A stretch of DNA of 64,000 nucleotides from contig PLDK01000044.1 in NCBI GenBank assembly GCA_003135135.1, forward strand, positions 1 to 64,000, given 5' to 3'. How positions within the stretch are numbered: the stretch's first letter is position 1; every line of letters starts with the position of its first letter. Both the position numbers and the translations under genes were made by a program. The notes under the pieces were generated by a model, which saw nothing but the letters and a program-made list of their open reading frames with translations, made no database searches and was not told where the DNA came from. Below, piece after piece: positions 19,008 through 59,315 of the stretch. The DNA is from Deltaproteobacteria bacterium (lineage in GTDB: Bacteria; Desulfobacterota; Binatia; Binatales; Binataceae).

Positions 19008-19199
19008 TCCTTCCTTAAGCGCGTGAGTTGAAGCGCGGATGCTTCGCATCCGTCGCCGACGCTTGCTTGGCGCGCTCGCTCGCGACAATTGGGAAATATA
19101 TTTGCCGATGCGATCGGCAGATAAAGACGCGGGTTTTCGACCTGTGCAGACGCAGCAGCGCCGCGATCGATCGCGGCTGGAAGGTTGGATTTTTGTGAA

Positions 19200-20552
19200 A
19201 TGCTATACGCAAGCATTCGCCGCATAGCGGCGCGAAATTTAGTGGCCATCCTGATTGCCATCGTAATTCTGATCGGCATTGGGTCGTCAGGACACGCCCA
19301 GGACAGTGCCGCGATGGCGGCTCATCAGGACGTCGCTCGGCCTGGCCGTGGCACTGAGACACCCGCCAGTTCAGATCGACTGCGAGCGCTGGTCGACGAG
19401 GCCCTTTCGCGTAGCCCGATCGTGCTCGCGGCGCGGAGCCACTGGCAGGCTCAAATGAAGGTGCCGATCCAGGCGGCGACGATCCCCGATCCACAGGTGT
19501 CACTCCAGCATTTCACCGTCGGCAGTCCGCAGCCCTTCTCCGGCTACGAGAGCAGCGACTTTTATTACACCGGCTTCGGTGTCTCGCAGGACATCCCGGG
19601 TCCGGGCAAGCTTCGCTTGCAAAAATCCGAGGCCGAAAAAGACGCCGACTACGCCAAGCGCCGCTATGAAGCTGCGGAGCGTGGAGTCGAGGAAAAGGTC
19701 AAGGAGATTTACTTCGAGCTTTTCTATCACGCGAAGACGCTCGAGATTCTCGGTCGCAATCAGGAGGATCTGAGACAGATCCAGCAGATCATAGAAACCA
19801 GGTATCGACTGGGACAGGGGCTGCAGCAGGACCTGATCAAGGCGCAACTCCAAACCACCGAGATTTTGACCGAGCACGCGATGCACCATCAGGAGGAGGA
19901 CCAGGCACAGCTCGAGCTCAAGCAGATACTCGGACGCGATCCCGACTCGCCGAATATCGGCATCGGCGGGGTCGAAGCGACGCATCTGGATCTCGATTCG
20001 GCCGAGCTGGCACGGCTCAGCGACGCGGGCTCCCCGGAACTCGCGGCGGATCGTGCGATGGAAACGCGCAGCGCGGAAGCATTGAAGCTTGCGCATCAGG
20101 GGTACTGGCCGGACTTCACCGTCGGCTACTCGTACCAAAAGACCGGCCCCGGATTTCGCGACTACTACATGCTGAATCTGGGCGCGAAGGTTCCGCTCTA
20201 TTTCTGGCGCAAGCAAACGCCCGCGATCGAGCAGGCCGCGCTTGAAGCCGAGTCGGCGCGCGAGCAGACCCGTGCAACTCAGCTGCAAGTTTCCTCCGAA
20301 GCGGAAAGCAGCCTGGTCGCGATGCGCACCGCGGAGCGAACGATGTCGATCTATCGCGACGGCCTGTTGCCGCAGGCCGAAACGTCGGAGGCCTCGGCAA
20401 TGTCCGCGTATCGGGTCGGCAAAGTCGATTTCCAGACGCTGCTCTCGTCGGTTCTCGATTTACGCAACCTCCGCCAGGAGTACTACCGCAGCCTGGCCGA
20501 CCACGAAATCGCGATCGCCAAAATCCAGCAGGTTATCGGTGCCCAAAGATGA
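19200..20552 (+). CDS. cusC: TolC-family outer membrane efflux protein (CusC-type)
   Basis: The 450-residue product is the outer-membrane channel of an RND efflux system. It has an N-terminal signal/membrane segment (NLVAILIAIVILIGIG), then two repeats of long coiled-coil helices typical of TolC (ERGVEEKVKEIYFELFYHAK and VDFQTLLSSVLDLRNLRQEYY). The ATG at 19200 (MLYASIRR) fits better than an upstream in-frame TTG. It overlaps the next gene by four bases (ATGA), making one operon with cusB and cusA. With them it should form a channel across both membranes for Cu(I) or Ag(I). Confidence 0.88.
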   Translation: MLYASIRRIAARNLVAILIAIVILIGIGSSGHAQDSAAMAAHQDVARPGRGTETPASSDRLRALVDEALSRSPIVLAARSHWQAQMKVPIQAATIPDPQVSLQHFTVGSPQPFSGYESSDFYYTGFGVSQDIPGPGKLRLQKSEAEKDADYAKRRYEAAERGVEEKVKEIYFELFYHAKTLEILGRNQEDLRQIQQIIETRYRLGQGLQQDLIKAQLQTTEILTEHAMHHQEEDQAQLELKQILGRDPDSPNIGIGGVEATHLDLDSAELARLSDAGSPELAADRAMETRSAEALKLAHQGYWPDFTVGYSYQKTGPGFRDYYMLNLGAKVPLYFWRKQTPAIEQAALEAESAREQTRATQLQVSSEAESSLVAMRTAERTMSIYRDGLLPQAETSEASAMSAYRVGKVDFQTLLSSVLDLRNLRQEYYRSLADHEIAIAKIQQVIGAQR

Positions 20553-22036
20553 GTTACAACACATTACAATTGCGACTCAGCACAGCCCTTTTGATCCTGG
20601 GATCCCTTCTCATCCTCACGGCGCCAATCGCATACGCAGCCGATTCCTCGCTGGCGCCAATCCGGATCGCGCCGGAGCGCCGGCAATTGATCGGACTCAA
20701 GTTCGCGACCGTGGTGCGAAAGGACGTGAGCGATCGTCTGGAGACCACCGGGAACATCGAAGCTGACGAACGGCTGCAAGGCTATGTGCAGACGCGTTTC
20801 GCCGGATGGATCGAACAGGTGTTCGCGAATTCGACTTATCAGTACGTCCGCCGAGGCCAGCCGTTGTTCACGATCTACAGCCCCGACCTCGTCAGTACCG
20901 AGAACGAATATCTGCTCGCCGTCGATGCCCGTAAGCGCGTCAAGGACAGCTCGGTCGCCGATGTGACCACCGACGCGTCATCGCTGGTCGATTCCGCCGC
21001 GCAGCGCCTGAGCCTGTGGGGAGTGTCGCCGCGCGAGATCTCGCGCTTGGAACGCGAGCGCACCGTCCGCCACGCCGTCGAGATCGACTCACCCATGAGC
21101 GGGTACATCGTCGAGCGCAACGCGCTGCCCAACATGTACGTGCAACCGGGCACGCGCCTGTTCACGATCACCGATCTGTCGAAAGTGTGGATCTATGCGG
21201 CGGTGTTTCAGGACGAGATCGGCAAGGTCCATCCCGGCGATCCTGCAACCGTTACGGTGGACGCCTATCCGGGTACGAACTTCGAGGGGCGCGTCGATTT
21301 CATCTGGCCGCAGATCGATCCGACGACTCGCACCGCCAAAGTGCGATGCGAGTTCAACAACCCCAAAGGCCTGTTGCTTCCGGGGATGTTCGCGCAGGTT
21401 GCGCTGGAGCTGCCGATGGGCGACCAAACTGTCATTCCGGACACTGCGGTGCTACGCACGGGCGCGCACAATGTCGCGTTTATCGATCGCGGTGACGGTT
21501 ATCTCACTCCCGCCGAGATCGAACTGGGACCGCACGCCGGCGATGAGTTCATCGTGCTCAAGGGGCTCGCGCCCGGTCAGCGGATCGTCAGTTCCGCCAA
21601 TTTCCTGATCGACTCGGAAAGCCAACTCCAGGCCGCCGCGGGCGCGTTCGTGCCGCCTCCGCCGGCCGCAACCGCGAATGCGGCCGGACCGGCGGCGCAG
21701 CCTGTCCCCCAGGCAAGCATTGCGTTCACCAGCGACCCCAATCCTCTCGTGCGCGGCCACAACAAGGTGATCGTGACGCTGCGCGATTCCAAGGGCGCCC
21801 CGATCTCGGGCGCGAAAGTGACGGTCACCTTCTACATGGCTGCAATGCCGGCGATGGGAATGGCCGCGATGCGCGCGCAAGCCATCGCAGATGACCGGGG
21901 CAACGGCGCCTACGCCGCAAATATCGAACTGCTTAGCGGTGGCACCTGGAGCCTGACGATCGTCGCGTCGAAGGGCGGCCATACGATCGCGACCAGGCAG
22001 ATGGACGTATCAGCGAGCGGCTCCATGGCGATGTGA
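20549..22036 (+). CDS. cusB: RND efflux periplasmic adaptor (CusB-type) with C-terminal FixH-like domain
   Basis: The 495-residue product is the periplasmic membrane-fusion adaptor of the efflux system. After a signal segment come the barrel-sandwich and hairpin parts (IEADERLQGYVQTRFAGWIEQV, SPMSGYIVERNALPNMYVQPG), then WIYAAVFQDEIGKVHPG and the barrel with IWPQIDPTTRTAKVRCEF. From about residue 385 a separate domain resembles FixH/YtkA (VRGHNKVIVTLRDSKGAPISG, FYMAAMPAMGM), joined by an alanine-proline linker. Many CusB proteins lack this extension; its methionine-rich piece could bind copper. The gene overlaps cusC and ends eight bases before cusA. Confidence 0.9.
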   Translation: MSYNTLQLRLSTALLILGSLLILTAPIAYAADSSLAPIRIAPERRQLIGLKFATVVRKDVSDRLETTGNIEADERLQGYVQTRFAGWIEQVFANSTYQYVRRGQPLFTIYSPDLVSTENEYLLAVDARKRVKDSSVADVTTDASSLVDSAAQRLSLWGVSPREISRLERERTVRHAVEIDSPMSGYIVERNALPNMYVQPGTRLFTITDLSKVWIYAAVFQDEIGKVHPGDPATVTVDAYPGTNFEGRVDFIWPQIDPTTRTAKVRCEFNNPKGLLLPGMFAQVALELPMGDQTVIPDTAVLRTGAHNVAFIDRGDGYLTPAEIELGPHAGDEFIVLKGLAPGQRIVSSANFLIDSESQLQAAAGAFVPPPPAATANAAGPAAQPVPQASIAFTSDPNPLVRGHNKVIVTLRDSKGAPISGAKVTVTFYMAAMPAMGMAAMRAQAIADDRGNGAYAANIELLSGGTWSLTIVASKGGHTIATRQMDVSASGSMAM

Positions 22037-22043
22037 GGAAAGA

Positions 22044-25000
22044 ATGATGATCGAGAGAACTATCGAATGGTGTAATGCGAACCGCTTCATGCTGTTCGCC
22101 GGTGTGATTGCGCTGGTACTGGCGGGCGTTTGGTCGCTCGATCGGATCCCGCTCGACGCGCTGCCGGACATCTCCGACGTCCAGGTGATCATCCACACGC
22201 AATGGATGGGGCAGCCGCCCAGTCTCATCGAGGATCAGGTGACCTATCCGATCGTCACCGCGATGCTTGCTGCGCCGCATGTGAAGGCAGTCCGAGCGCA
22301 GACGATGCCCAGCGATTCATATGTGTTCGTCGTGTTCGAAGACGGCACCGACATCTATTGGGCGCGCAGCCGCGTGCTGGAATACCTACAACAGATCGCC
22401 GGCACGTTGCCGGCTGGCGTCAATCCCGTGATCGGCCCCGACGCAACCGGCGCGGGCTGGGTGTACGAATACGCGCTGGTCGATAAGAGCCATCTTCACA
22501 GTCTCGCCGACCTTCGCAGCTTGCAGGATTGGAACGTGCGCTATGCGCTCGAAACCGTGCCGGGGGTTTCGGAAGTCGCCACTATCGGCGGCTTCGTTAA
22601 GCAGTACCAGGTCAAGCTCGATCCCAATCGGTTGCTAGCGCTCAAGGTCCCGCTGGAGACGGTGATCGACAAAATCCGCGACAGCAACGGCGAAGTCGGC
22701 GGCCGCGTGCTCGAGATGTCGGGAGCGGACTACATGATCCGCGGCCTCGGCTACGTCCATTCGGTGGCAGACCTCGAAGATGTTTCCGTTGCGACCAACA
22801 ACGGCACGCCGGTGCTGATAAGAGACCTGGGCGTGGTCAGTCTGGGACCCGATCTTCGCGAAGGCGCCGCTGAGTGGAACGGCGACGGAGAGACGGTCGG
22901 CGGCATCGTCGTGATGCGCTACGGGCAGAATGCCCTCACCGTCATCGACGGGGTCAAGCAGAAGCTTGCCCAGATTCGAAAGACTCTGCCGGCGGGAGTC
23001 GAAATCGTCGCCGGCTACGACCGGTCGGGACTCATTCAGGCATCCATCAACACCCTGAAACGCGACCTGCTCGAAGAGGCCGTCATCGTCAGCCTGGTGA
23101 TTATCGTCTTCCTCTTTCATCTGCGTTCGGCGCTGATCCCGATTCTTGCGCTGCCGATCGCGGTCATCGCGACGTTTATCCCGATGTACTATCTGCAGAT
23201 CAGCTCCAACATCATGTCCTTGGGCGGGTTGGCGCTGGCGATAGGCGTGCTGGTCGACGCTTCGATCGTAATGGTCGAAAACGGGTACCGGCACCTGTCG
23301 GAGGCACAGCAGGAGGCGTCGCGCAAGGGCGAGTCATTATCCGAACCCGAACGGCAGCGGATTCTGCTATCGGCCGCGAAACAAGTAGGCCGCCCGATTT
23401 TCTTCTCGCTGATCATCATCGTTGTCTCATTCCTGCCGGTTTTCCTGCTCGAATCGCAGGAGGGGCGGATGTTCCGACCGCTGGCCTACACCAAGTCTTT
23501 CGCGATTTCGTTCTCCTCAGTTCTCGCGATCACGGTGGTTCCGGTGCTGATGGTCCTCTTCATACGCGGCAAACGGCTGCGCCCCGAGGAGAACAACCCC
23601 ATCTCGCGCTTCTTCCAGGCCATTTATCTGCCGGTGATCCGATGGTGCCTGCGTCATCGCGCGCTGACGATTGCCGTCAACGTGATTTTTCTGCTGCTCA
23701 CGATTCCGCTGCTGTTCAAGATCGGAAGTCAGTTCATGCCGCCGTTGTATGAGGGGTCGAGTCTCTACATGCCTACCGCCCTGCCCGGGATTTCGATCAC
23801 GTCGGCGGTAAATCTGATGCAGAAGCAGGATCAGATCATCCGCGCGTTTCCCGAGGTCGAGAGTGTATTCGGCACCGTGGGACGGTCAGATAGCGCGACC
23901 GACAACGCACCGCTGGACATGTACGACACGACGATCATGCTCAAGGCGCGCGACCAATGGCGAAAGGGCATGACCTACGACCAGCTCATCGCCGAGATGG
24001 ACGACAGGCTGCATTTCCCTGGTCTGTCCAACTCGTGGACGATGCCGGTCCAGAACCGGCTCGACATGGAACTGACCGGGATCAAAACTCCGGTCGGACT
24101 CAAAATTCAGGGTCCCGACCTCGACCGGATTCAGCAGATAGGTTCTCAGATCGAAGAAATACTCGGACCGGTTGCGGGCACGCGGGGAATTTTCGCCGAG
24201 CGGGTTTCTCAAGGATTCTACATTAACGTTGATGTGGACCGCGCCGTCGCCGCGAGGTATGGCCTGACGGTCGGAGAAGTTCAGCGGGCGGTCAGCTCCG
24301 GGATGGGCGGCGAGAATATCGCGACCACCGTCGAAGGGCGAGAACGCTACTCGATAAACGTTCGCTATCTCGCGGATTATCGCAGCGACCTGAACGCGCT
24401 TCGTCGAATACTGATCATGACGCCGACGGGAGCGCAGATCCCGCTCGGCGAAGTCGCGCGTATCAGCTTGGGCCCGGGGCCATCGATGATACGGGATGAA
24501 GACGGGCTGCTGACCGGCTACGTCTATGTTGACCTCGCGACCTCGGACTACGGCAGCTACGTTGACAGCGCGCAGCGCGTGCTCGATCGGCAACTGCACC
24601 TGCCCGCCGGATACACTCTGAAATGGTCGGGAGAGTATGAGTTCCAGCTGCGCGCGCGAAAGCGCCTGATAGTTATCCTGCCGATCGTCTTGTGTCTGAT
24701 CTTTGTCCTGCTTTACATGCTCTTCCAGTCGGCGACCGAAGCGATCGTGCTGATCCTTCCGACCGTGTACGCGATGACAGGCGGGCTGCTGCTCCAGTAC
24801 ATGATGGGCTTCAACTTCAGCGTTGCCGTATGGGTCGGGTACATCGCGTTGTTCGGCATCGCTGTCGAGACCGGCGTCGTCATGGTGATTTATCTTCACG
24901 AAGCCCTCAATCGTCACATCGCCGCCGGCGCGCTCACTCACGAGGAGATCGAGTTGGCGGTAATCGAGGGTGCCGTCCAGCGGCTTCGACCCAAGCTGAT

Positions 25001-25193
25001 GACCGTTGCAGTCGTGATGCTCAGTCTCGCGCCGATTCTATGGGAGAGCGGGATCGGCTCCGACCTGATGAAGCCCATCGCCGCGCCAATCGTCGGCGGC
25101 ATGATCACCTCGACGATGCACGTCCTCATACTTGTGCCGGTGTTCTTCGCGATCATGAAGGAGCGGGAATTCAAGAAAAATGGCCTGCACTGA
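22044..25193 (+). CDS. cusA: HME-RND heavy-metal efflux pump, Cu(I)/Ag(I) type (CusA)
   Basis: The 1049-residue product is the inner-membrane proton antiporter of the tripartite pump. It has twelve predicted helices, two large periplasmic loops, and the HME signature AIGVLVDASIVMVEN of the CusA type. The three methionines that bind copper in E. coli CusA (573, 623, 672) have exact counterparts here at 576 (LYMPTALPGIS), 626 (APLDMYDTTIM) and 675 (NRLDMELTGIK), with the same spacing. This supports Cu(I)/Ag(I) export rather than zinc or cobalt. No copper-responsive regulator is visible in the window. Confidence 0.94.
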   Translation: MMIERTIEWCNANRFMLFAGVIALVLAGVWSLDRIPLDALPDISDVQVIIHTQWMGQPPSLIEDQVTYPIVTAMLAAPHVKAVRAQTMPSDSYVFVVFEDGTDIYWARSRVLEYLQQIAGTLPAGVNPVIGPDATGAGWVYEYALVDKSHLHSLADLRSLQDWNVRYALETVPGVSEVATIGGFVKQYQVKLDPNRLLALKVPLETVIDKIRDSNGEVGGRVLEMSGADYMIRGLGYVHSVADLEDVSVATNNGTPVLIRDLGVVSLGPDLREGAAEWNGDGETVGGIVVMRYGQNALTVIDGVKQKLAQIRKTLPAGVEIVAGYDRSGLIQASINTLKRDLLEEAVIVSLVIIVFLFHLRSALIPILALPIAVIATFIPMYYLQISSNIMSLGGLALAIGVLVDASIVMVENGYRHLSEAQQEASRKGESLSEPERQRILLSAAKQVGRPIFFSLIIIVVSFLPVFLLESQEGRMFRPLAYTKSFAISFSSVLAITVVPVLMVLFIRGKRLRPEENNPISRFFQAIYLPVIRWCLRHRALTIAVNVIFLLLTIPLLFKIGSQFMPPLYEGSSLYMPTALPGISITSAVNLMQKQDQIIRAFPEVESVFGTVGRSDSATDNAPLDMYDTTIMLKARDQWRKGMTYDQLIAEMDDRLHFPGLSNSWTMPVQNRLDMELTGIKTPVGLKIQGPDLDRIQQIGSQIEEILGPVAGTRGIFAERVSQGFYINVDVDRAVAARYGLTVGEVQRAVSSGMGGENIATTVEGRERYSINVRYLADYRSDLNALRRILIMTPTGAQIPLGEVARISLGPGPSMIRDEDGLLTGYVYVDLATSDYGSYVDSAQRVLDRQLHLPAGYTLKWSGEYEFQLRARKRLIVILPIVLCLIFVLLYMLFQSATEAIVLILPTVYAMTGGLLLQYMMGFNFSVAVWVGYIALFGIAVETGVVMVIYLHEALNRHIAAGALTHEEIELAVIEGAVQRLRPKLMTVAVVMLSLAPILWESGIGSDLMKPIAAPIVGGMITSTMHVLILVPVFFAIMKEREFKKNGLH

Positions 25194-44498: not shown

Positions 44499-45203
44499 AT
44501 GCACTTGAACGTCAGGGAAGTGTCGAAACTGCTGCAGGTCTCAGAGAAGAAAGTTTACGACTGGATCAAGCGCGGAATCCTAAGAGCCGATCGCGTCAAT
44601 GACCAGTACCGGTTGCATCGTAGCGATCTGCTGGAACGGACGTCGTCGCGCGAAATAGACATCCCGGCGCAGATTTTCGAAGTTCCCTCTTCTGCCGGAG
44701 TTTTTATGCCTCGACTGGCCGCGGCGCTGAACGCGGGTGGCATTTTCTATGGACTGCAGGGCGACGATAAGGCGGCAGTTCTAGGCGCCATCGTGAACAG
44801 TCTGGCGCTGCCGTCGAACATCGATCGAGAATCGCTCACGCAACTCCTACTGGCGCGCGAGGCGCTTGGTTCAACCGCGATCGGCGAGGGCATCGCCATC
44901 CCTCACGTCCGCAGACCAATCCTGTTGAACATCTCCAGTCCGGCGATCTCGTTGTGCTTTCTCGAGAAGCCCGTTGATTTCGGCGCTTTCGACGGCCAGC
45001 CGGTCTTCGCTATTTTCCTGCTAATCAGCCCAACCGCCCGCATGCATCTTCATCTGCTGTCGCGTCTTTCATTCGCATTGCACGACTCGCAGTTGAAGGC
45101 GGCTCTGGTGCACCGGGCGGCGCGCGACGAAATCCTTGCCGAGTTTGAGCGCGTGGAGCGCGCGATGAAGGAACCGCACGTCGAAGCGGAGGATCACGCC
45201 TGA
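44499..45203 (+). CDS. Excisionase-type HTH / PTS EIIA-Ntr fusion regulator
   Basis: The 234-residue product joins two parts. Residues 1-48 are an excisionase/MerR-type helix-turn-helix (LNVREVSKLLQVSEKKVYDWIKRG, QYRLHRSDLLE). Residues 75-225 are an EIIA-Ntr/fructose-type PTS domain, with the phosphorylatable histidine at 136 in STAIGEGIAIPHVRRP. It could pass phosphorylation state to DNA binding or sense metabolic state. It is the first gene of the run leading into the hydrogenase-4-like complex, with the next ATG three bases after its stop, so it probably controls or tunes that operon. No other PTS protein is in the window. Confidence 0.85.
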   Translation: MHLNVREVSKLLQVSEKKVYDWIKRGILRADRVNDQYRLHRSDLLERTSSREIDIPAQIFEVPSSAGVFMPRLAAALNAGGIFYGLQGDDKAAVLGAIVNSLALPSNIDRESLTQLLLAREALGSTAIGEGIAIPHVRRPILLNISSPAISLCFLEKPVDFGAFDGQPVFAIFLLISPTARMHLHLLSRLSFALHDSQLKAALVHRAARDEILAEFERVERAMKEPHVEAEDHA

Positions 45204-45206
45204 ATC

Positions 45207-47180
45207 ATGTCAGCGCTGCTGATAGCGCTACTGTCCTTTGGCGCCGGCGCGATGGGGGCACTGGTCTTCGCAAATCGTGGACGAGGGGCGACGATCTGCG
45301 GTGCAGGAGGAGTCCTGATCGGCTGCGTATGCGGAATCATTCCCGTTTTACGCGTAGCGCTTGGCGAACCGTCACAGTCAATCCGGATGGCGTGGGATGT
45401 GCCCTATGGCAGCCTTTTCCTAGAACTTGATCCGCTGTCGGGTTTCTTTCTGATTCCTGTTTTTGTGCTGTGCGCACTAGCTGCGATTTATGGGGCTGAC
45501 TATCTGGAAGCGTACCGCGGCAGGAAGACGCTCGCCGCGCCGTGGTTCTTTTTCAATCTGCTCGTCGCCAGCATGGTCGTCGTTATTCTCGCTCGCAACG
45601 GCGTCCTTTTCCTGATGGCGTGGGAAGTGATGGCGCTGTCCTCGTTCTTCCTGGTGACCTTCGAAGACGAAAAGGAAAGCACGCGCCAGGCCGGATGGGT
45701 ATACCTCGTCGCCAGTCATATCGGGACTGCCTTTCTGCTAGTGCTATTCATACTGCTCGGCAGAGCAAGCGGGTCTTTGGATTTTGATCGGTTCTCGGCA
45801 TCTTCGGGCGCCGGACTTCTGTTCGTGCTGGCGCTGGTCGGATTTGGAACCAAGGCGGCCTTTATCCCGCTCCACGTATGGCTTCCCGAAGCGCATCCAG
45901 CCGCGCCGAGTCACGTGTCGGCTGTGATGTCGGCCGTCATGATCAAGACCGGCATCTATGGCCTGATTCGCGTCATGATGCTTCTGGGCGCGCCTCAGGC
46001 GTGGTGGGGATGGGTACTGTGCGTGATCGGCCTATCTTCCGGGGTCATTGGCGTCCTGCTCGCGCTGGCGCAACATGACCTTAAGCGCCTGCTTGCCTAC
46101 CACAGTGTCGAGAACATAGGCATCATCGCTCTAGGACTGGGTGTGGGAACACTGGGACTCTACGCGGGACTCCCAGCCGTGGCGGCCATGGGTTTCGCCG
46201 GCGCCTTGCTGCATGTCCTGAACCATGCGCTTTTCAAGGGACTGCTCTTTCTGGCCGCTGGTAACGTTGTGCACAGCGCTCATACCCGCGAGATCGACCA
46301 CCTAGGAGGTCTGCTGCGGCGAATGCCGCGTACCGGTGCGATCTTCCTGATTGGCGCCGCGGCGATTTCAGGTCTCCCGCCGCTAAACGGCTTCATTAGC
46401 GAGTTTCTAATCTATCTCGCGAGCTTCAAGGGAGCGGTGACGCTCGAGGGGGCCAACAGCGTGCCGATGCTAGCCACGATCGCGGGACTCGCGTTGATTG
46501 GAGGCTTGGCGGCGGCCTGCTTCACGAAGGCTTTCGGCATAGTTTTCCTCGGTGAACCGCGAACCGAGCACGCCGAGCAAGCACACGAGGTCGGGCTAGC
46601 CATGGTGCTGCCCGGGGCCGTACTGGCGGGCGCGTGCATATTGATCGGACTGCTCGGCGCAAGCGTAGTGTCCTCGATGCCTCCGCTGATTTCGGAAGTG
46701 ACAGGACTGTCGGCGACGATCGTCCGTGCAAGCCTCTCGACCGCCGCGCACTCCATCGCATTGGTGAGCATTATCGGCGGGGCCTTGGCCGGCATAGTAA
46801 CGCTGCTCGCGATAGGCCGCGCGATCGCACTTTCTAACCGATCAGTCTCCACAAATGTGACCTGGGACTGTGGCTACGCCAAACCGTCGCGGCGAATGCA
46901 ATATACCGCATCGTCGTTCGCTCAACCTTTAACCGACACCTTCGATTTGCTGCTGCAAACACGCCGCCATGTAATCGCGCCGCAAGGCTTTTTTCCGAAG
47001 GAGGCCAGTCTTGCTACCGAAACTCCCGATCCATGCCAGGAATACATTTATCGCCCGCTCTTTGGCGCTATCGGCCGCGACCTCTTGCTGCTGCGGCCGC
47101 TGCAGCAAGGGCAGGTTCAGCTTTACATATTGTATATCGCCGTCACTCTCCTCCTGCTTCTGCTCTGGCAGCTCGCATAA
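45207..47180 (+). CDS. hyfB: Proton-conducting membrane subunit, HyfB-like
   Basis: The 657-residue product is an antiporter-like membrane subunit of the NuoL/M/N and HyfB/HycC type, with about fifteen hydrophobic helices. Conserved segments are WEVMALSSFFLVTFE (with the key glutamate), GTKAAFIPLHVWLPEAHPAAPSHVSAVMSAVMIKTGIYG, and LLAYHSVENIGIIALGLG. Such subunits move protons or sodium ions across the membrane. The first gene of the membrane complex, it follows the EIIA-type regulator directly and precedes the HyfC-like gene with a three-base gap. Length matches HyfB (about 670). Confidence 0.9.
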   Translation: MSALLIALLSFGAGAMGALVFANRGRGATICGAGGVLIGCVCGIIPVLRVALGEPSQSIRMAWDVPYGSLFLELDPLSGFFLIPVFVLCALAAIYGADYLEAYRGRKTLAAPWFFFNLLVASMVVVILARNGVLFLMAWEVMALSSFFLVTFEDEKESTRQAGWVYLVASHIGTAFLLVLFILLGRASGSLDFDRFSASSGAGLLFVLALVGFGTKAAFIPLHVWLPEAHPAAPSHVSAVMSAVMIKTGIYGLIRVMMLLGAPQAWWGWVLCVIGLSSGVIGVLLALAQHDLKRLLAYHSVENIGIIALGLGVGTLGLYAGLPAVAAMGFAGALLHVLNHALFKGLLFLAAGNVVHSAHTREIDHLGGLLRRMPRTGAIFLIGAAAISGLPPLNGFISEFLIYLASFKGAVTLEGANSVPMLATIAGLALIGGLAAACFTKAFGIVFLGEPRTEHAEQAHEVGLAMVLPGAVLAGACILIGLLGASVVSSMPPLISEVTGLSATIVRASLSTAAHSIALVSIIGGALAGIVTLLAIGRAIALSNRSVSTNVTWDCGYAKPSRRMQYTASSFAQPLTDTFDLLLQTRRHVIAPQGFFPKEASLATETPDPCQEYIYRPLFGAIGRDLLLLRPLQQGQVQLYILYIAVTLLLLLLWQLA

Positions 47181-47183
47181 CTC

Positions 47184-48095
47184 ATGAGTCTGCGATCAAC
47201 ATTACCATTGCTGCTTGCGATGGTGCTCGCTCCCCTCATTCAGGGAGTTGTCAATCGCACCAAGGCCGTCGCCGCTGGCCGCGTTGGTCAGCCACTCTTG
47301 CAGCCATATCGCGACCTGATAAAGCTGGTCCAAAAGGGCGCGGTATACAGCCGAACGACTACGTGGGTCTTCCGGATGGGACCAGTAGTTGGTCTTGCGG
47401 CCATGATCTGCGCCATGGCGCTACTTCCTTTCGGAGCTTTTCCGGCGCTTGCGCCATTCGCGGGCGACCTCGTGATGGTCGCATATCTTTTGGCGCTGGC
47501 CCGGTTCTTCACGGTGCTAGCCGCGCTCGATACCGGTTCTAGCTTTGAAGCAATGGGCGCCAGCCGCGAGGTCACATTCTCAGCACTGGCAGAACCCGCC
47601 CTTTTTCTGGGATTGGCCGCGCTGGCCCGGCAGACTGGAACTCTTTCGCTTACTTCCATGCTCGGATCGGTTTCTACCGCCATGTGGATGCGAGCCGCAC
47701 CGGCGCTCGGTCTAACTATTGCGGCTCTGGGTGTGGTTTTTCTTGCGGAGAATGCACGTATCCCTGTGGACGATCCTACAACGCATCTCGAGTTGACCAT
47801 GATTCATGAAGTTATGGTCCTCGACCACAGCGGTCCTGATTTCGCGATGATCCAGTACGCAGCGGCGCTCAAAATGTGGCTGCTTGGCGCAGTCATAATC
47901 GCGATAGCCGTCCCCTGGCATTCAGGCAATCCTTTGCTCGATGGCGGCTCCGCCATTGCCGGGATGTTCGGTCTGGCAGTGGTAATCGGGATCATCGAAT
48001 CTTCGATGGCGCGTTTGCGACTGCTTCGCGTAACGCAACTGCTGATCGCCGCTGTGGTGCTGTCCGGTCTGGCTCTGGCGCTGGTCCAAAGATGA
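47184..48095 (+). CDS. hyfC: NuoH-like membrane subunit, HyfC-like
   Basis: The 303-residue product is the membrane subunit that links the ion-pumping arm to the redox arm in complex I and group 4 hydrogenases. It has about eight helices and the conserved features NRTKAVAAGRVGQPLLQPYRD, AMGASREVTFSALAEPAL and ENARIPVDDPTTHLELTMIHE with its acidic residues facing the quinone-site equivalent. Start ATG at 47184 lies three bases after the HyfB-like stop. It ends four bases before the HyfE-like gene. Confidence 0.9.
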   Translation: MSLRSTLPLLLAMVLAPLIQGVVNRTKAVAAGRVGQPLLQPYRDLIKLVQKGAVYSRTTTWVFRMGPVVGLAAMICAMALLPFGAFPALAPFAGDLVMVAYLLALARFFTVLAALDTGSSFEAMGASREVTFSALAEPALFLGLAALARQTGTLSLTSMLGSVSTAMWMRAAPALGLTIAALGVVFLAENARIPVDDPTTHLELTMIHEVMVLDHSGPDFAMIQYAAALKMWLLGAVIIAIAVPWHSGNPLLDGGSAIAGMFGLAVVIGIIESSMARLRLLRVTQLLIAAVVLSGLALALVQR

Positions 48096-48099
48096 AGAG

Positions 48100-48753
48100 A
48101 TGAGCCAGTTGGTAAACGCGATTCTGGTCTTCCTGCTGCTAACCGGCTTTCTGCTTCTGGCATCGAGCCGGCTCATCGCCTGTATCCGCGCCGTTGCAAT
48201 GCAGGGAATATTGCTAGGTCTTTTGGCCATCGCCGCGCAGGATGGAAACCCATCTGTTTTTGGCGTGCTGCTTCCGCTTGTCAGTGCCGCGGTCAAAGGC
48301 TTCATCCTGCCGTGGCTACTCATTCGAGCCATGCGCGACGCTGACACTGCCCGTGAGATCGAGCCGTTCATCGGCTACAACCTATCGGTGATTATCGGAG
48401 CGGTAGCACTTGGGGGTTCGATTTGGCTGGGGCAGCGCCTGCCCCTTCCCAACCAGCCTACTTCGTTCTTGTTGGTGCCCGCGGCGTTTTTCACGTGCCT
48501 GGTGGGCTTTGTACTGCTAACCACCCGCCGCAAGGCAATTACCCAGGTCCTGGGCTACCTGACTCTGGAGAATGGCGTGTATGCATTCGGGGCCGCAGTT
48601 GCGCTGGAAATGCCCATCCTCGTCGAACTGGGCATCTTACTTGATGTGTTTGTAGGAGTGTTCGTGATGGGCATCGCGATATTCCATATCAATCGCCAGT
48701 TTGATCATATCGACACGGGCCAGCTTGTAACTCTGTCCGATCGGGTCCGATGA
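48100..48753 (+). CDS. hyfE: Membrane subunit, HyfE-like
   Basis: The 217-residue product has about seven hydrophobic helices and matches HyfE, which includes a NuoK-like part. Typical pieces are LVSAAVKGFILPWLL, a glutamate-bearing helix ITQVLGYLTLENGVYAFG and LGILLDVFVGVFVMGIAIFHI. It overlaps the HyfF-like gene by four bases (ATGA). In the complex it lies between the antiporter-like subunits. There is no second, HyfD-like, antiporter gene between HyfC and HyfE, so the layout is B-C-E-F. Confidence 0.88.
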   Translation: MSQLVNAILVFLLLTGFLLLASSRLIACIRAVAMQGILLGLLAIAAQDGNPSVFGVLLPLVSAAVKGFILPWLLIRAMRDADTAREIEPFIGYNLSVIIGAVALGGSIWLGQRLPLPNQPTSFLLVPAAFFTCLVGFVLLTTRRKAITQVLGYLTLENGVYAFGAAVALEMPILVELGILLDVFVGVFVMGIAIFHINRQFDHIDTGQLVTLSDRVR

Positions 48754-50222
48754 TCCTGCTAGTGATATTGATTCCGGCGCTGGCGGGTACGGCGGCATTC
48801 TTTATCGGGTCAGATCCGCTCCGCCGCGGGCTCCTTGTGTCCACTGCGATTGTGCAATTCGCATTGAGCGTCGGAACATGGCTGGAGCCGCCGACGCCCG
48901 CGCTTAACGGTTGGCTTGCTGAAGATGCGCTCGGCCGGTTGTTCATGACCCTCACCAGTGCACTCTTCCTGGCATCGAGCTTTTACGCAGTTGCGTACCT
49001 GCGCGAAGAACGCAGTCAGTCGCACTCGGATTTCGAGGAGGGATTTCTTTTTTCCAATGCACGTGAAGCAAGCTTCACGGGTTGCCTCCTTTTCTTTCTT
49101 GCTGCGATGACGCTGGTCACACTTAGCCAGCACCTGGGACTTCTTTGGGTGACTGTAGAGGCGACAACCCTGGCCAGTGCTCCGCTGATTTACTTCCATA
49201 GGCATCATCGCTCGCTTGAGGCGACGTGGAAATATCTGCTGATTTGCTCGGTTGGGATCGCGTTGGCGCTGCTGGGGATTTTCTTCCTTGCGGTAGCTGC
49301 TACCAGTCCCGGGACCGGCACCGTCTCCCTGGTTCTGAAAGATCTGCTTTCTGACGCGCCGCACTTGAACCGTCTGTGGCTAAAGGCGGCGTTTGTGCTG
49401 ATGCTCGTCGGCTACGGCACCAAGATGGGGCTTGCCCCGTTTCACACCTGGCTGCCCGACGCCCACAGTGAAGCGCCTTCAGTGGCGTCGGCGCTGCTTT
49501 CCGGCGCTCTGCTCAATTGTGCGTTTCTCGGGATTCTAAGAATCCACCAAATCTGTGTCGCGAGTGGCTTGGTTGATTTCAGCGAACGGTTGCTGCTCGT
49601 TCTAGGACTGCTCTCGATGGCGGTAGCGGCGATATTCATCACGGGTCAGGTTGACTACAAACGCATGCTTGCATACTCGAGCATCGAGCATATGGGCATC
49701 CTGGCGGTGGGCGTAGGATTGGGCGGCGCAGGGCTGTTCGGAGCGATGCTCCATGTGATCAATCATTCGCTGACCAAGGTGATGTTGTTCATGGTCGCAG
49801 GAAACCTCCTGGCTGTTTACCATACCAAGATTGCGAAAAACGTCTCGGGAGCTTTGCAGGTCTTGCCAGTATCCGGTTTGCTATGGGTGTTGGGCTTTCT
49901 TGCGATAACGGGCTCGCCGCCATTCGGCCCGTTCCTGAGTGAATTCACCATCCTGAAAGCCGCGCTGGATCAGGGCCGGTCTTTCGTTGCGATTGCCTAT
50001 CTGATTTTTCTGGCGATCATTGTGGCGGGAATGGCCACGCCCGTGCTTGCAATGGCACAAGGCACTCCAGACAGCAACGTCGTCGTCCCGGCGGGCCGAG
50101 GTGTTGCGTTGAGCGCGGTTCCGGCGGTACTAGGCGCTGCAATTCTGCTGATGGGTATTTACGTTCCGCCGGTCCTGAGTCGGACGCTTCACGAAGCCGC
50201 GCGCCTGCTAGGTCAGCATTGA
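48750..50222 (+). CDS. hyfF: Antiporter-like membrane subunit, HyfF-like
   Basis: The 490-residue product is a second proton-translocating subunit of the NuoN/HyfF type, with about fourteen helices. Conserved pieces are GLLWVTVEATTLASAPLIYFH (glutamate in TM5), GYGTKMGLAPFHTWLPDAHSEAPSVASALLSG and KRMLAYSSIEHMGILAVGVG, followed by HVINHSLTKVMLFM. Start and end overlap or abut the neighbouring genes, so it is coupled to HyfE and to the large subunit. With two antiporter-like subunits the complex could move at least two ions per turnover, by analogy. Confidence 0.9.
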   Translation: MILLVILIPALAGTAAFFIGSDPLRRGLLVSTAIVQFALSVGTWLEPPTPALNGWLAEDALGRLFMTLTSALFLASSFYAVAYLREERSQSHSDFEEGFLFSNAREASFTGCLLFFLAAMTLVTLSQHLGLLWVTVEATTLASAPLIYFHRHHRSLEATWKYLLICSVGIALALLGIFFLAVAATSPGTGTVSLVLKDLLSDAPHLNRLWLKAAFVLMLVGYGTKMGLAPFHTWLPDAHSEAPSVASALLSGALLNCAFLGILRIHQICVASGLVDFSERLLLVLGLLSMAVAAIFITGQVDYKRMLAYSSIEHMGILAVGVGLGGAGLFGAMLHVINHSLTKVMLFMVAGNLLAVYHTKIAKNVSGALQVLPVSGLLWVLGFLAITGSPPFGPFLSEFTILKAALDQGRSFVAIAYLIFLAIIVAGMATPVLAMAQGTPDSNVVVPAGRGVALSAVPAVLGAAILLMGIYVPPVLSRTLHEAARLLGQH

Positions 50223-50224
50223 CT

Positions 50225-51730
50225 ATGGCGATAGGTCTTTCACCATTCCACAGTGGCGAACCGGTTCCGCTTCGCAGCGTTCCCGACCTGTCGATTGCCG
50301 AGTTCAGAACCGCGATTCTCTCCGCGGTGAGCAGCACCTGCAGCCTGGCAGCGCTGTTTGGGATGCCCGCCGGCGATCGCCTCGTTCGGCTGATCGCCGT
50401 CGTGGCCGACTCGGTGACGAATAGCCTCTCGATTCTCAGCACCAAGGTCGGCGAGTCATACCCGTGCCTGACGCTCGAATGTCCGCAAGCTCATTGGTTC
50501 GAGCGTGAAATCGCCGAGCAGTGGCAGGTTCATCCGGATGGGCATCCCTGGCTGAAGCCGATTCGATTCCACGCGCCCTACCGGACGAGCAACAGCTTAT
50601 CGCCAGCACCAGTTGCGGGGGTGACCGATTTTTTCGCGATGGCCGGTGAAGAGGTTCACGAAGTCGCGGTAGGCCCTGTGCATGCGGGAATCATCGAGCC
50701 TGGCCATTTCCGTTTCCAATGTCACGGTGAGGATGTCTTTCATCTGGAGATATCGCTTGGCTACCAGCATCGGGGGGTTGAACGGGCGCTCGTGGGAGGA
50801 CCCGGCAAGCGAACGATCCATCTGATGGAAACGCTATGCGGTGATACCTCGATAGGACACGCGACCGCGTATTGTGAAGCAATCGAAGCCTTAGGCAGTA
50901 CGGCGGTTTCAGCGCGGGCCCAAGTGCTGCGTGGAGTAGCGCTGGAGCTCGAGCGTCTTGCAAACCATACCGGCGACTTGGGCGCTCTCGCGGGAGATGT
51001 CGGGTATCTGCCGACCGCGGCGTATTGCGGCCGCATTCGCGGAGACTTCCTCAACCTAACGGCAGCACTGTGCGGAAGCCGCTTCGGCCGGGGATTGATA
51101 AGACCCGGCGGGGTCGGATTCGATGTGGGTAAGCCGCTCGTCGCCAAGCTACAGGAGCGGTTAGAAGCGGCCTTGAAGGATGTCGAGGACGCGCTAGCCC
51201 TGCTATGGGACGCACCATCCGTGCAAGCGCGCTTCGAGCACACCGGGACGATAACGCGAGAAACCTGCGAGGCGCTTGGGATGGTTGGTCCCGCGGCGCG
51301 CGCCTGCGGGGTTGAGCGAGACATCAGACAGGATTTTCCCAGCGGCATCTTCAGATTCGCGCAGATACCTATATCCAAATGGCATAGCGGGGACGTCTTT
51401 GCGCGAGCCTGGTTGCGATGGCTTGAAATTCAGCGTTCGGGTGCATTCGTGAGAGAGCAGTTCGCCTCGATGCCCGACGGACCCATACTGTCGCCGGCCG
51501 GGCCGCTACCAGCCGATCATCTGGTGGTGTCTTTGGTCGAGGGATGGCGCGGAGAGATTTGCCACGTCGCGATCACCGACGCAGATGGGCACTTTGCACA
51601 TTATAAGATAGTCGATCCGTCGTTCCACAATTGGATGGGATTGGCGATGGCGATGCGCAATCAGCAAGTCTCCGATTTTCCTCTGTGCAACAAGAGCTTC
51701 AACCTCTCATATTGCGGTCACGATCTCTGA
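50225..51730 (+). CDS. hyfG: Large subunit, NuoCD/HyfG-like, lacking full NiFe ligands (Ehr-type)
   Basis: The 501-residue product joins a NuoC-like N-terminal part (CPQAHWFEREIAEQW) to a NuoD/hydrogenase-large-subunit part (HLEISLGYQHRGVERAL, RGVALELERLANHTGDLGALAGDVG). In true group 4 hydrogenases the metal is held by CxxC pairs in RxCGxC and DPCxxC. Here the first motif is TLCGDTS, with only C205 kept, and the C-terminus is DFPLCNKSFNLSYCGHDL, with no CxxC. A nickel-iron centre therefore looks impossible, which fits energy-converting hydrogenase-related (Ehr) complexes. The true electron donor is unknown. The ATG at 50225 was preferred over a TTG two codons upstream. Confidence 0.85.
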   Translation: MAIGLSPFHSGEPVPLRSVPDLSIAEFRTAILSAVSSTCSLAALFGMPAGDRLVRLIAVVADSVTNSLSILSTKVGESYPCLTLECPQAHWFEREIAEQWQVHPDGHPWLKPIRFHAPYRTSNSLSPAPVAGVTDFFAMAGEEVHEVAVGPVHAGIIEPGHFRFQCHGEDVFHLEISLGYQHRGVERALVGGPGKRTIHLMETLCGDTSIGHATAYCEAIEALGSTAVSARAQVLRGVALELERLANHTGDLGALAGDVGYLPTAAYCGRIRGDFLNLTAALCGSRFGRGLIRPGGVGFDVGKPLVAKLQERLEAALKDVEDALALLWDAPSVQARFEHTGTITRETCEALGMVGPAARACGVERDIRQDFPSGIFRFAQIPISKWHSGDVFARAWLRWLEIQRSGAFVREQFASMPDGPILSPAGPLPADHLVVSLVEGWRGEICHVAITDADGHFAHYKIVDPSFHNWMGLAMAMRNQQVSDFPLCNKSFNLSYCGHDL

Positions 51731-51739
51731 GGATAGCCA

Positions 51740-52522
51740 GTGCCTAGCTTGATACTCACTCGACTGCGTCAGGGCAAACGCACGTTGCCATTTCCCGAGA
51801 CCGAGCCGGTTCTACCCGAGCGAATCCGCGGCCTACCCGTTATGGATCACGCACGATGCCCGTCGGGCTGTACGAGTTGCGCGGATGCCTGCCCGACGGA
51901 TGCGATTACCAGTGGCGGAAATTTGCAAATCGATCTCGGCCGCTGCCTGTTCTGCCCCGAGTGCGCCAACGCATGCCCCGAAGGAGCGATTCGTTTCACC
52001 TCGCAATATCAACTCGCGACCAGCAGTCGGAATGATTTGGTCTTGACCGAAGGAGAAGCGCTGCGGCTGGCGGGCCGTCTGGCTGAACAGACCTATCGGG
52101 TCCTCGGCCGCTCTCTCAAACTCCGACAGGTCAGCGCCGGTGGATGCAACGGATGTGAGTCGGACGTTAATGTTCTCAATACCGTGGTGTTCGACCTGGG
52201 CAGATTCGGCATTCAGTTTGTGGCGTCGCCACGCCACGCGGATGGACTTCTGATTACGGGCGCCGTCACTCAGAACATGCGACTGGCCCTGGAGAAGACC
52301 TACCAAGCCGTGCCCTATCCTAAGATTGTGATAGCAGTGGGCGCCTGTGCAATTTCAGGCGGCCCATTTCGCGATCATCCCGAGGTACTTAACGGCGCGG
52401 ATAGCATCGTTCCGGTAGACCTTTACGTCCCGGGCTGTCCGCCACACCCTGTGACAATCCTTGACGGCCTCTTGCGCCTCATCGGGAAAATTAAAGAATC
52501 GCGAGCTACACCTTCCAGCTGA
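51740..52522 (+). CDS. Fused ferredoxin and small subunit (HyfH/HyfI-like)
   Basis: The 260-residue product fuses two parts that are usually separate. Residues 40-85 hold two 4Fe-4S ferredoxin motifs (CPSGCTSCADACP and CLFCPECANACP). Residues 125-255 are the NuoB-like small subunit, with the N2-type cluster cysteines in SAGGCNGCESDVN, VGACAISGG and PGCPPHP. It carries electrons between the outside donor and the large subunit. The start is GTG at 51740, nine bases after the large-subunit stop. The next gene is on the opposite strand, so this is the end of the operon. Confidence 0.9.
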   Translation: MPSLILTRLRQGKRTLPFPETEPVLPERIRGLPVMDHARCPSGCTSCADACPTDAITSGGNLQIDLGRCLFCPECANACPEGAIRFTSQYQLATSSRNDLVLTEGEALRLAGRLAEQTYRVLGRSLKLRQVSAGGCNGCESDVNVLNTVVFDLGRFGIQFVASPRHADGLLITGAVTQNMRLALEKTYQAVPYPKIVIAVGACAISGGPFRDHPEVLNGADSIVPVDLYVPGCPPHPVTILDGLLRLIGKIKESRATPSS

Positions 52523-57833: not shown

Positions 57834-59315
57834 ATGGCCACGCACGAACGGCTGAGCACCCTGGACCGGACATTCCTCGACCTCGAATATCCTGAAACGC
57901 CCATGCACGTTGCAGGCGTGATGCTTTTCGACGCCGCCCCGCTGCGGACCCCCGGCGGCGGAATCGATGTCGAAAAGATCCGGAAACACGTCGCGTCGCG
58001 ATTGCATCTCATGCCCCGTTATCGACAGCGGATCGCGCGGATACCGCTTGAGAATCATCCGGTGTGGGTGGACGACGATCGCTTCAACCTTGAATATCAC
58101 GTGCGGCACACCGCGCTGCCGCGGCCCGGCGGCGACGAGCAGCTCAAGCGATTGACGGGAAGAATCATCTCGCAGCAACTCGATCGCGGCAAACCGCTGT
58201 GGGAATTGTGGATAGTCGAGGGACTCGAGGGCGATCGCTTCGCGATGATCACCAAGACCCATCACTGCATGATCGACGGAGTAGCCGCCGTCGATCTCGC
58301 AACCGTGCTGCTGAGTCCGTCGCCGGACGCGACGATTGCCGACGCGCAGCCGTGGAAGCCGCAGTCCGCGCCGTCGCGCGGCGAGCTGGTGATGGAGGAA
58401 GCCCGGCGGCGACTGGCGACCCTGCTGGAATTCCGCAAAGCGGTCCTCGGCGCGATGCAAAATCCGGCCGAGACGGCGGAGAGCATCGGCGAGCAGATTG
58501 TCGCGGTAACCGAAACGATCGGCGCGGGAATGTCTTCAGCTTCGGAGTCGCCGTTCAATCAGCCAATCGGGCCGCATCGGCGATTCGAATGGACCGCGAT
58601 CGAGCTGGCGGACGTCAAGCGCGTGAAGAACGCTCTGGGCGGGACGGTAAACGATGTCGTGCTCGCCACGGTGGCGGGTGCGGTTGGATTGTTTCTGAGC
58701 GGCCGAGGACTTTCTCGCAAAGAAATTGCGGAACTCGATTTCCGCGCGATGGTTCCGGTGAGCGTGCGCGCGTCGTCGGAACGAGGCACGCTGGGAAATC
58801 GAATCGCGTCATGGGCGGCACGCCTTCCGATCGCTCAAACCGATCCGCGCCGGCGCCTGCAGGCGGTCCGCGCGGTCACGGCCGATCTCAAAGGGTCGCG
58901 GCAGGCGATGGGAGCAGAGGTGCTCGCGCGGGTCAGCGAGTGGACGGCGGCCACACTGTTGTCGCTCGCGATGCGTCTGGCGGCGCGGGCGCGCCCGTTC
59001 AATCTGATCGTCACCAACGTTCCCGGACCGCAGATCCCGCTTTACATGATCGACTCGCGGCTGTTGGCCGGATATCCAATCGGGCCGCTGTTTTTGGATC
59101 AATCGCTCAACATCGCGCTGCTCAGCTACGACGGCCGGTTGTATTGGGGATTCAATGGGGACTGGGATGTGCTGCCCGATCTTGGCGATCTCGTTGCGGC
59201 AACTCGCGCATCGTTCGACCAGTTGCTCCAGGCAACTGAGACGGCGCAGGTTCGAACGCGCGCGCGCAGCCGCCGACCGCCGGCGAAGCATTTCTCAGGC
59301 GAGCGGAAACGCTAA
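57834..59315 (+). CDS. Wax ester synthase/diacylglycerol acyltransferase (WS/DGAT)
   Basis: The 493-residue product is a bifunctional WS/DGAT, which makes wax esters or triacylglycerol from acyl-CoA. The signature HHCMIDGVAAVDLA carries the catalytic HHxxxDG motif. Further conserved segments are LSTLDRTFLDLEYPETPMHV at the start, NDVVLATVAGAVGLFL, RAMVPVSVRASSERGTLGN, NVPGPQIPLYM and YPIGPLFLDQSLNIALLSY. Length is normal for the family. Its ATG follows GAGGAGGCG. Storage-lipid synthesis fits the acyl-CoA-rich setting. The main acyl acceptor (alcohol or diacylglycerol) is unknown. Confidence 0.93.
   Translation: MATHERLSTLDRTFLDLEYPETPMHVAGVMLFDAAPLRTPGGGIDVEKIRKHVASRLHLMPRYRQRIARIPLENHPVWVDDDRFNLEYHVRHTALPRPGGDEQLKRLTGRIISQQLDRGKPLWELWIVEGLEGDRFAMITKTHHCMIDGVAAVDLATVLLSPSPDATIADAQPWKPQSAPSRGELVMEEARRRLATLLEFRKAVLGAMQNPAETAESIGEQIVAVTETIGAGMSSASESPFNQPIGPHRRFEWTAIELADVKRVKNALGGTVNDVVLATVAGAVGLFLSGRGLSRKEIAELDFRAMVPVSVRASSERGTLGNRIASWAARLPIAQTDPRRRLQAVRAVTADLKGSRQAMGAEVLARVSEWTAATLLSLAMRLAARARPFNLIVTNVPGPQIPLYMIDSRLLAGYPIGPLFLDQSLNIALLSYDGRLYWGFNGDWDVLPDLGDLVAATRASFDQLLQATETAQVRTRARSRRPPAKHFSGERKR

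Follow-up and report, generated by a model that had tools for sequence, protein, structure and literature searches.

A seven-gene operon related to group 4 hydrogenases

The stretch of DNA analysed here in full (the window) comprises positions 1–64,000 of contig PLDK01000044.1 from a Deltaproteobacteria bacterium of the family Binataceae (assembly GCA_003135135.1), and its element of interest is a compact operon at positions 44499–52522 that encodes a membrane complex related to group 4 hydrogenases. Seven intact open reading frames lie on the + strand of this region, separated by gaps of at most 9 bases or overlapping by 4 bases. Gene 1 (44499..45203) codes for a 234-residue protein, hereafter HTH-IIA, in which an excisionase/MerR-like helix-turn-helix (HTH) domain is fused to a PtsN-like IIA domain of the phosphotransferase system (PTS) (Pfam HTH_17, 2e-10; PTS_EIIA_2, 6e-25). 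Genes 2 to 7 encode, in this order, a HyfB-like antiporter-like membrane subunit (EhrA type; 45207..47180, 657 residues; NCBIfam hydrogenase 4 subunit B, 3e-183), a HyfC/HycD/NuoH-like membrane subunit (EhrB type; 47184..48095, 303 residues; Pfam NADHdh, 1.5e-31), a HyfE-like membrane subunit (EhrC type; 48100..48753, 217 residues; NCBIfam hydrogenase 4 membrane subunit, 1.9e-20), a HyfF-like antiporter-like membrane subunit (48750..50222, 490 residues; NCBIfam hydrogenase 4 subunit F, 8e-109), the large subunit EhrL, made of a 30-kDa/NuoC-like and a 49-kDa/NuoD-like part (50219..51730, 503 residues; identified by alignments, an AlphaFold model and its fold match to HycE), and EhrS, a fusion of two [4Fe–4S] ferredoxin motifs with a NuoB/HycG-like small subunit carrying one [4Fe–4S] site (51740..52522, 260 residues; Pfam Oxidored_q6, 2e-30, and Fer4). 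Family matches with E-values down to 3e-183 and synteny in dozens of genomes place this arrangement beyond chance.

An earlier reading, made from the sequence alone, had described six tightly packed Hyf-type genes. These are indeed intact, on one strand and of the stated families, but the operon has seven genes: the stretch starts at 44499 because the HTH_17–PTS_EIIA_2 gene, which the sequence-only reading left undescribed, begins there. The absence of a HyfD-like subunit and of an adjacent maturation gene, also claimed at the time, is borne out by the gene content of the operon and its flanks, the latter containing no hydrogenase or maturation gene. Within the operon, we found neither a HycB/HyfA-like linker gene nor genes for an NADH module (NuoEFG).

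The complex belongs to a widespread family

From sequence similarity and gene order, the operon is identified as encoding an Ehr (energy-converting hydrogenase-related) complex, a known family of unsolved function. Ehr has been described as devoid of Ni–Fe ligands and of unknown function (PMC6349859, PMC10284858, PMC10432482, PMC7304191), and such complexes have also been reported from comammox Nitrospira and ammonia-oxidising archaea. The assignment, already proposed by the sequence-only reading, is upheld by the EhrL homologues of Geobacteraceae (L093, L096, L100), which are ~57% identical to EhrL and share the same AGDTT ... NKSFNLSYCG signature, and by a tree of 52 sequences, in which EhrL and its divergent paralogues form one well-supported clade (100/98) that excludes HycE, HyfG, an Ech-type enzyme and NuoD; this tree has an unresolved root and a number of long branches. 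More than 570 relatives turned up in a scan of named genomes, and the 80 best of them span more than ten phyla, including Planctomycetota, Verrucomicrobiota, Zixibacteria, Omnitrophota, Spirochaetota, Elusimicrobia, Acidobacteriota, Thermodesulfobacteriota, Myxococcota, Fibrobacterota and Nitrospinota.

The survey also brought up three neighbouring situations. Other genera of the host family (L013–L018) encode, beside HyfB/F-like genes, a third non-hydrogenase group-4-like large subunit of 530 residues, with the motifs ERISGTSAFAHS ... TFALSVHENDR, whose branch in the tree adjoins that of EhrL. A metagenome-assembled genome of Verrucomicrobia carries two different Ehr operons in tandem (L095:12200-20000), the second being of the divergent type and devoid of HTH-IIA. 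Finally, one contig with an Ehr operon also encodes an Ech-type hydrogenase (L047:17700-21494) whose CGIC and PCFSC motifs are intact.

EhrL has lost the Ni–Fe site and maintains another pocket

The closest solved structure to EhrL by sequence profile is HycE from the Escherichia coli formate hydrogenlyase (2.8e-87), and the AlphaFold model of EhrL (predicted local distance difference test score, pLDDT, 90.7) matches the fold of HycE (7z0s_E) with a Z-score of 45.9 over 483 residues. Alignment with HycE and HyfG puts the Ni–Fe ligand positions at residues 207, 210, 497 and 500. Position 207 is occupied by Ala, Ser and Cys in 77, 15 and 4 of the 96 homologues, position 210 by Thr in 85 and Ser in 9, and S497 and G500 are each found in all 96; the two CxxC motifs of group 4 [NiFe] hydrogenase large subunits are thus missing from EhrL, and the lack of all four ligating cysteines is a trait of the Ehr family. 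Both motifs quoted by the sequence-only reading, TLCGDTS and DFPLCNKSFNLSYCG, occur in the translated large subunit. The single Ni-motif cysteine that it saw retained (C207) is present here, yet given the residue counts at this position it is a quirk of a few sequences and not a family feature. In addition, EhrL ends with GHDL, three residues past G500, and has no maturation-protease extension, whereas HycE continues for ~32 residues.

The former metal site is strongly conserved. The EhrL alignment contains 60 invariant columns, among them H155, E160, G208, D209, H214, H250, D260, E441, R444, H449, N491, K492, S493, S497, Y498, G500 and D502, and the signature GDT ... NKSxNxSYxGxD is invariant at this place. 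E160, R444 and H214 are common to the hydrogenases HycE, HyfG and Ech, whereas D209, N491, K492 and D466 are specific to EhrL when compared with HycE, HyfG, NuoCD, the host NuoD and the Ech-type enzyme. In an alignment with Thermus Nqo4, the quinone ligands of complex I are replaced by invariant residues (Tyr87 by G208 and His38 by I159), and Asp139 of the quinone site corresponds to the invariant D260. This conservation pattern indicates that the EhrL pocket is a different, maintained site rather than a decayed one.

The sequence-only reading had considered metal-ligating cysteines at other positions. Conserved ones do exist in the main EhrL clade, where C168, C270, C285, C490 and C499 are near-invariant (89–92 of 92 rows), with metal ligation being only putative. 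In the divergent clade these cysteines are mostly replaced by Val, Ser, Thr or Ala, with Cys at positions 490 and 270 in some rows, and in the AlphaFold model C270 and C285 lie on one helix, 15 residues apart. A single metal site formed by all five cysteines is therefore unlikely, as is, more generally, a new metal site built from relocated cysteines.

Conserved electron wire and pump residues, and redox genes of the host class

The cluster cysteines of EhrS, which belong to two ferredoxin-type motifs and a NuoB-type cluster, are conserved in 65–73 of 73 homologues, and its ferredoxin-type domain favours ferredoxin as the electron donor. In the membrane arm, E140, K216 and K344 of the HyfB-like subunit (47 homologues), E137, K225 and K343 of the HyfF-like subunit (42 homologues) and E203, E209 and E272 of the NuoH-like subunit (60 homologues) are invariant. 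Since these are ion-pump residues, a redox-driven ion pump, as put forward in the sequence-only reading, is a reasonable proposal, and Ehr would couple a cytoplasmic redox reaction to ion translocation.

That reading had also suggested looking for co-occurring redox genes. We surveyed the 148 genomes of the host class, 27 of which contain Ehr and 121 of which do not. A formate dehydrogenase alpha subunit (FdhA) above the family cut-off occurs in 13/27 Ehr genomes and 60/121 others, so that formate dehydrogenase is not associated with Ehr in the class, and none was found in the host genome. Ferredoxin-reducing 2-oxoacid oxidoreductase (POR) domains are present in the host. HypD is absent from 12 of the 27 Ehr genomes, 11 of which are at least 90% complete, so that Ehr does not depend on NiFe maturation; the host genome itself has HypD.

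A helix-turn-helix–IIA protein is tied to the operon

In the same survey, HTH-IIA was detected in 22 of the 27 Ehr genomes and in none of the 121 others (Fisher p 8e-22). Beyond the class, it accompanies 48 of the 61 Ehr loci with enough upstream sequence, across phyla. Its usual place is directly before the B gene; in Verrucomicrobia (L095, L097, L099, L115) it lies between B and C. In Geomonas it is the first gene upstream, and in this genus as well as in three further Geobacter/Geobacteraceae genomes (L185–L187) it adjoins a B gene, at a site just beyond the first flank or on a separate contig. HTH-IIA is common and not universal: three Geothrix genomes and several more carry Ehr but lack it. 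The full-length protein was not found in genomes with the divergent Ehr (L039–L042 type). A comparison of all proteins encoded around 80 Ehr loci revealed no other conserved neighbour with a fixed place and the strand of the operon: the largest cluster, response regulators, was rejected because its members vary in position and strand, and two small ones with constant offsets were discarded since they lie antisense over genes of the operon.

The AlphaFold model of HTH-IIA (pLDDT 89.2) has PtsN (3urr) as its best match in the PDB. The putative phospho-acceptor His136, in the motif GIAIPH, is kept in 44 of 46 sequences, and the N-terminal HTH is conserved, also in Verrucomicrobia. The host has PTS genes for enzyme I (EI), HPr and three IIA domains, and no PTS permease (EIIC) was found in its genome; its PTS is therefore regulatory. 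HTH-IIA may be phosphorylated via EI and HPr and bind DNA under the control of phosphorylation. When eight close upstream regions were aligned, no conserved stretch that could represent an operator motif appeared ahead of the start codon, and promoter-like sites were not more frequent than in shuffled sequence. We found no report linking HTH-IIA to Ehr in the open-access literature, a search that cannot prove absence.

A proposed mechanism and its alternatives

Altogether, we lean, with some confidence, towards Ehr being a complex I-like oxidoreductase that translocates ions, does not act on H2, is fed by ferredoxin and is under the control of a nitrogen-related PTS (PTS-Ntr). The electron source would be a low-potential carrier (most probably reduced ferredoxin), from which electrons would pass to the two ferredoxin-type clusters of EhrS and then via its NuoB-type cluster to EhrL, where the NiFe pocket, presumably rebuilt from the polar residues E160, D209, T/S210, N491, K492, S497, Y498 and R444, would react with a non-proton acceptor. 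The energy of this reaction would power the passage of ions across the HyfB- and HyfF-like subunits, by way of the NuoH-like subunit. HTH-IIA would act as the operon's own regulator, relaying to DNA the phosphorylation state of a PTS free of transport functions. Several observations weigh against this proposal. HTH-IIA is undetected in five of the 27 Ehr genomes of the class, three of which (G052, G046 and G085) may owe this to contig ends or partial genes. HypD is commoner with Ehr (15/27 vs 25/121 in the other genomes, p 0.0005), an enrichment that probably reflects shared lineage (families f1 and f11). Nearly all genomes of the class (145/148) have POR, so its presence in the host says little about a ferredoxin link. 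Finally, the pocket loops 153–161 and 499–503 of EhrL are poorly predicted by AlphaFold, and the geometry of the pocket is thus not readable from the model.

A first alternative is a ferredoxin:quinone oxidoreductase, that is, a complex I without its NADH module that would use a quinone as acceptor in EhrL. The complex I-like fold, favourable energetics and the invariant counterpart of Asp139 (D260) speak for it, and the conserved Tyr498 and Asp209 could replace the lost ligands; nevertheless, with Gly and Ile invariant at the Tyr87 and His38 positions and hydrogenase-type E160, R444 and H214 kept instead, we regard a quinone acceptor as doubtful, albeit worth serious consideration. Less probable still is a formate-coupled complex, in which a formate dehydrogenase would feed Ehr in the manner of a formate hydrogenlyase minus the hydrogenase. 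Ehr subunits of Geobacter sulfurreducens are more abundant on formate (PMC7894505), for sister lineages of Cyanobacteria such a coupling has been proposed (PMC6349859), and HycE is the nearest solved fold to EhrL. However, the host has no FdhA above cut-off, FdhA is no commoner with Ehr in the class, the operon has no HycB/HyfA-like linker and no formate dehydrogenase gene is among the conserved neighbours. As for a [NiFe] hydrogenase with an unusual ligand set, C499 lies one residue off a ligand position with C490 nearby, and HypD is present in the host; but the family as a whole keeps none of the ligand cysteines, C499 and C490 are not invariant, the C-terminal extension needed by a maturation protease is missing and 11 nearly complete Ehr genomes do without HypD, so that this explanation is extremely improbable.

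A further alternative concerns HTH-IIA, which might mainly be a partner that binds and gates the Ehr complex and not a transcription factor. PtsN gates potassium transporters, and the HTH-IIA gene is the only conserved neighbour, standing inside the operon in Verrucomicrobia; the fact that the HTH is conserved even there fits DNA binding, and we deem the gating role rather unlikely. Returning to the ferredoxin-fed, PTS-controlled pump, a more specific version is conceivable, for which our confidence is low: the EhrL site, built on GDT and NKSxNxSYxGxD, might be metal-free, react with neither H2 nor quinone and be new to the superfamily, the pump being switched by the PTS through HTH-IIA. If true, a complex I-type pump would be wired to a regulatory PTS.

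Ehr complexes occur in more than ten phyla, and the survey narrows the options for their role: in this class, formate dehydrogenase and NiFe maturation are dispensable alongside the operon, the quinone ligands are gone and a pocket signature replaces the metal site. As far as our searches reach, the following are new: the HTH-PTS-IIA partner, the pocket signature shared by the whole family, the missing link to formate dehydrogenase in the class and the finding that NiFe maturation is not needed. The fusion partner points to control by the phosphoenolpyruvate/nitrogen state of the cell, and experimenters are now offered a specific regulator and specific residues for mutation.

Other genes of the window

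The operon is flanked by thiolase, GST-like and hydrolase genes and by an acyl-CoA ligase-like gene. Elsewhere in the window, positions 19185–25193 hold a CusCBA-like resistance-nodulation-division efflux operon, whose membrane fusion protein has a YtkA-like domain at its C-terminus, and positions 57834–59315 a wax ester synthase/diacylglycerol acyltransferase gene, which suggests storage lipid formation.

Comparison with known systems

The closest known counterparts are the Ehr complex of G. sulfurreducens (GSU0739-0745) and its Geomonas/Geobacter homologues, which have the same subunits in the same order (B-C-E-F-L-S), the same ligand loss, HTH-IIA upstream and, in the Geomonas/Geobacter homologues, an EhrL ~57% identical to that of the window. 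They differ by a second HyfB-like gene, the window operon having one; in Geomonas edaphica (L184:7927-11119), ferredoxin-like and NrfD-like genes lie on the other strand between the two HyfB-like genes. The hyc-like locus Rv0082-Rv0087 of Mycobacterium tuberculosis presumably has a similar layout. With formate hydrogenlyase and Hyf (HycE, HyfG; group 4a), the window Ehr shares the fold, the subunit set and the electron wire, but not the Ni–Fe ligands, the C-terminal extension, HyfD, HycB/HyfA or the maturation protease. Respiratory complex I (NuoB-D, H, L-N) has in common with Ehr the fold of the large and small subunits and a membrane arm with antiporter-like and NuoH-like subunits, whereas Ehr is devoid of the NADH module and of the His38 and Tyr87 quinone ligands. 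The archaeal Mbh and Mbx/Mbs complexes also have a ferredoxin-type subunit, and their large and small subunits are related to those of Ehr; sequence similarity is low. Finally, HTH-IIA shares the IIA fold and the phospho-acceptor His motif of PtsN (EIIA-Ntr), from which it is distinguished by its fused N-terminal HTH and its linkage to the Ehr operon.

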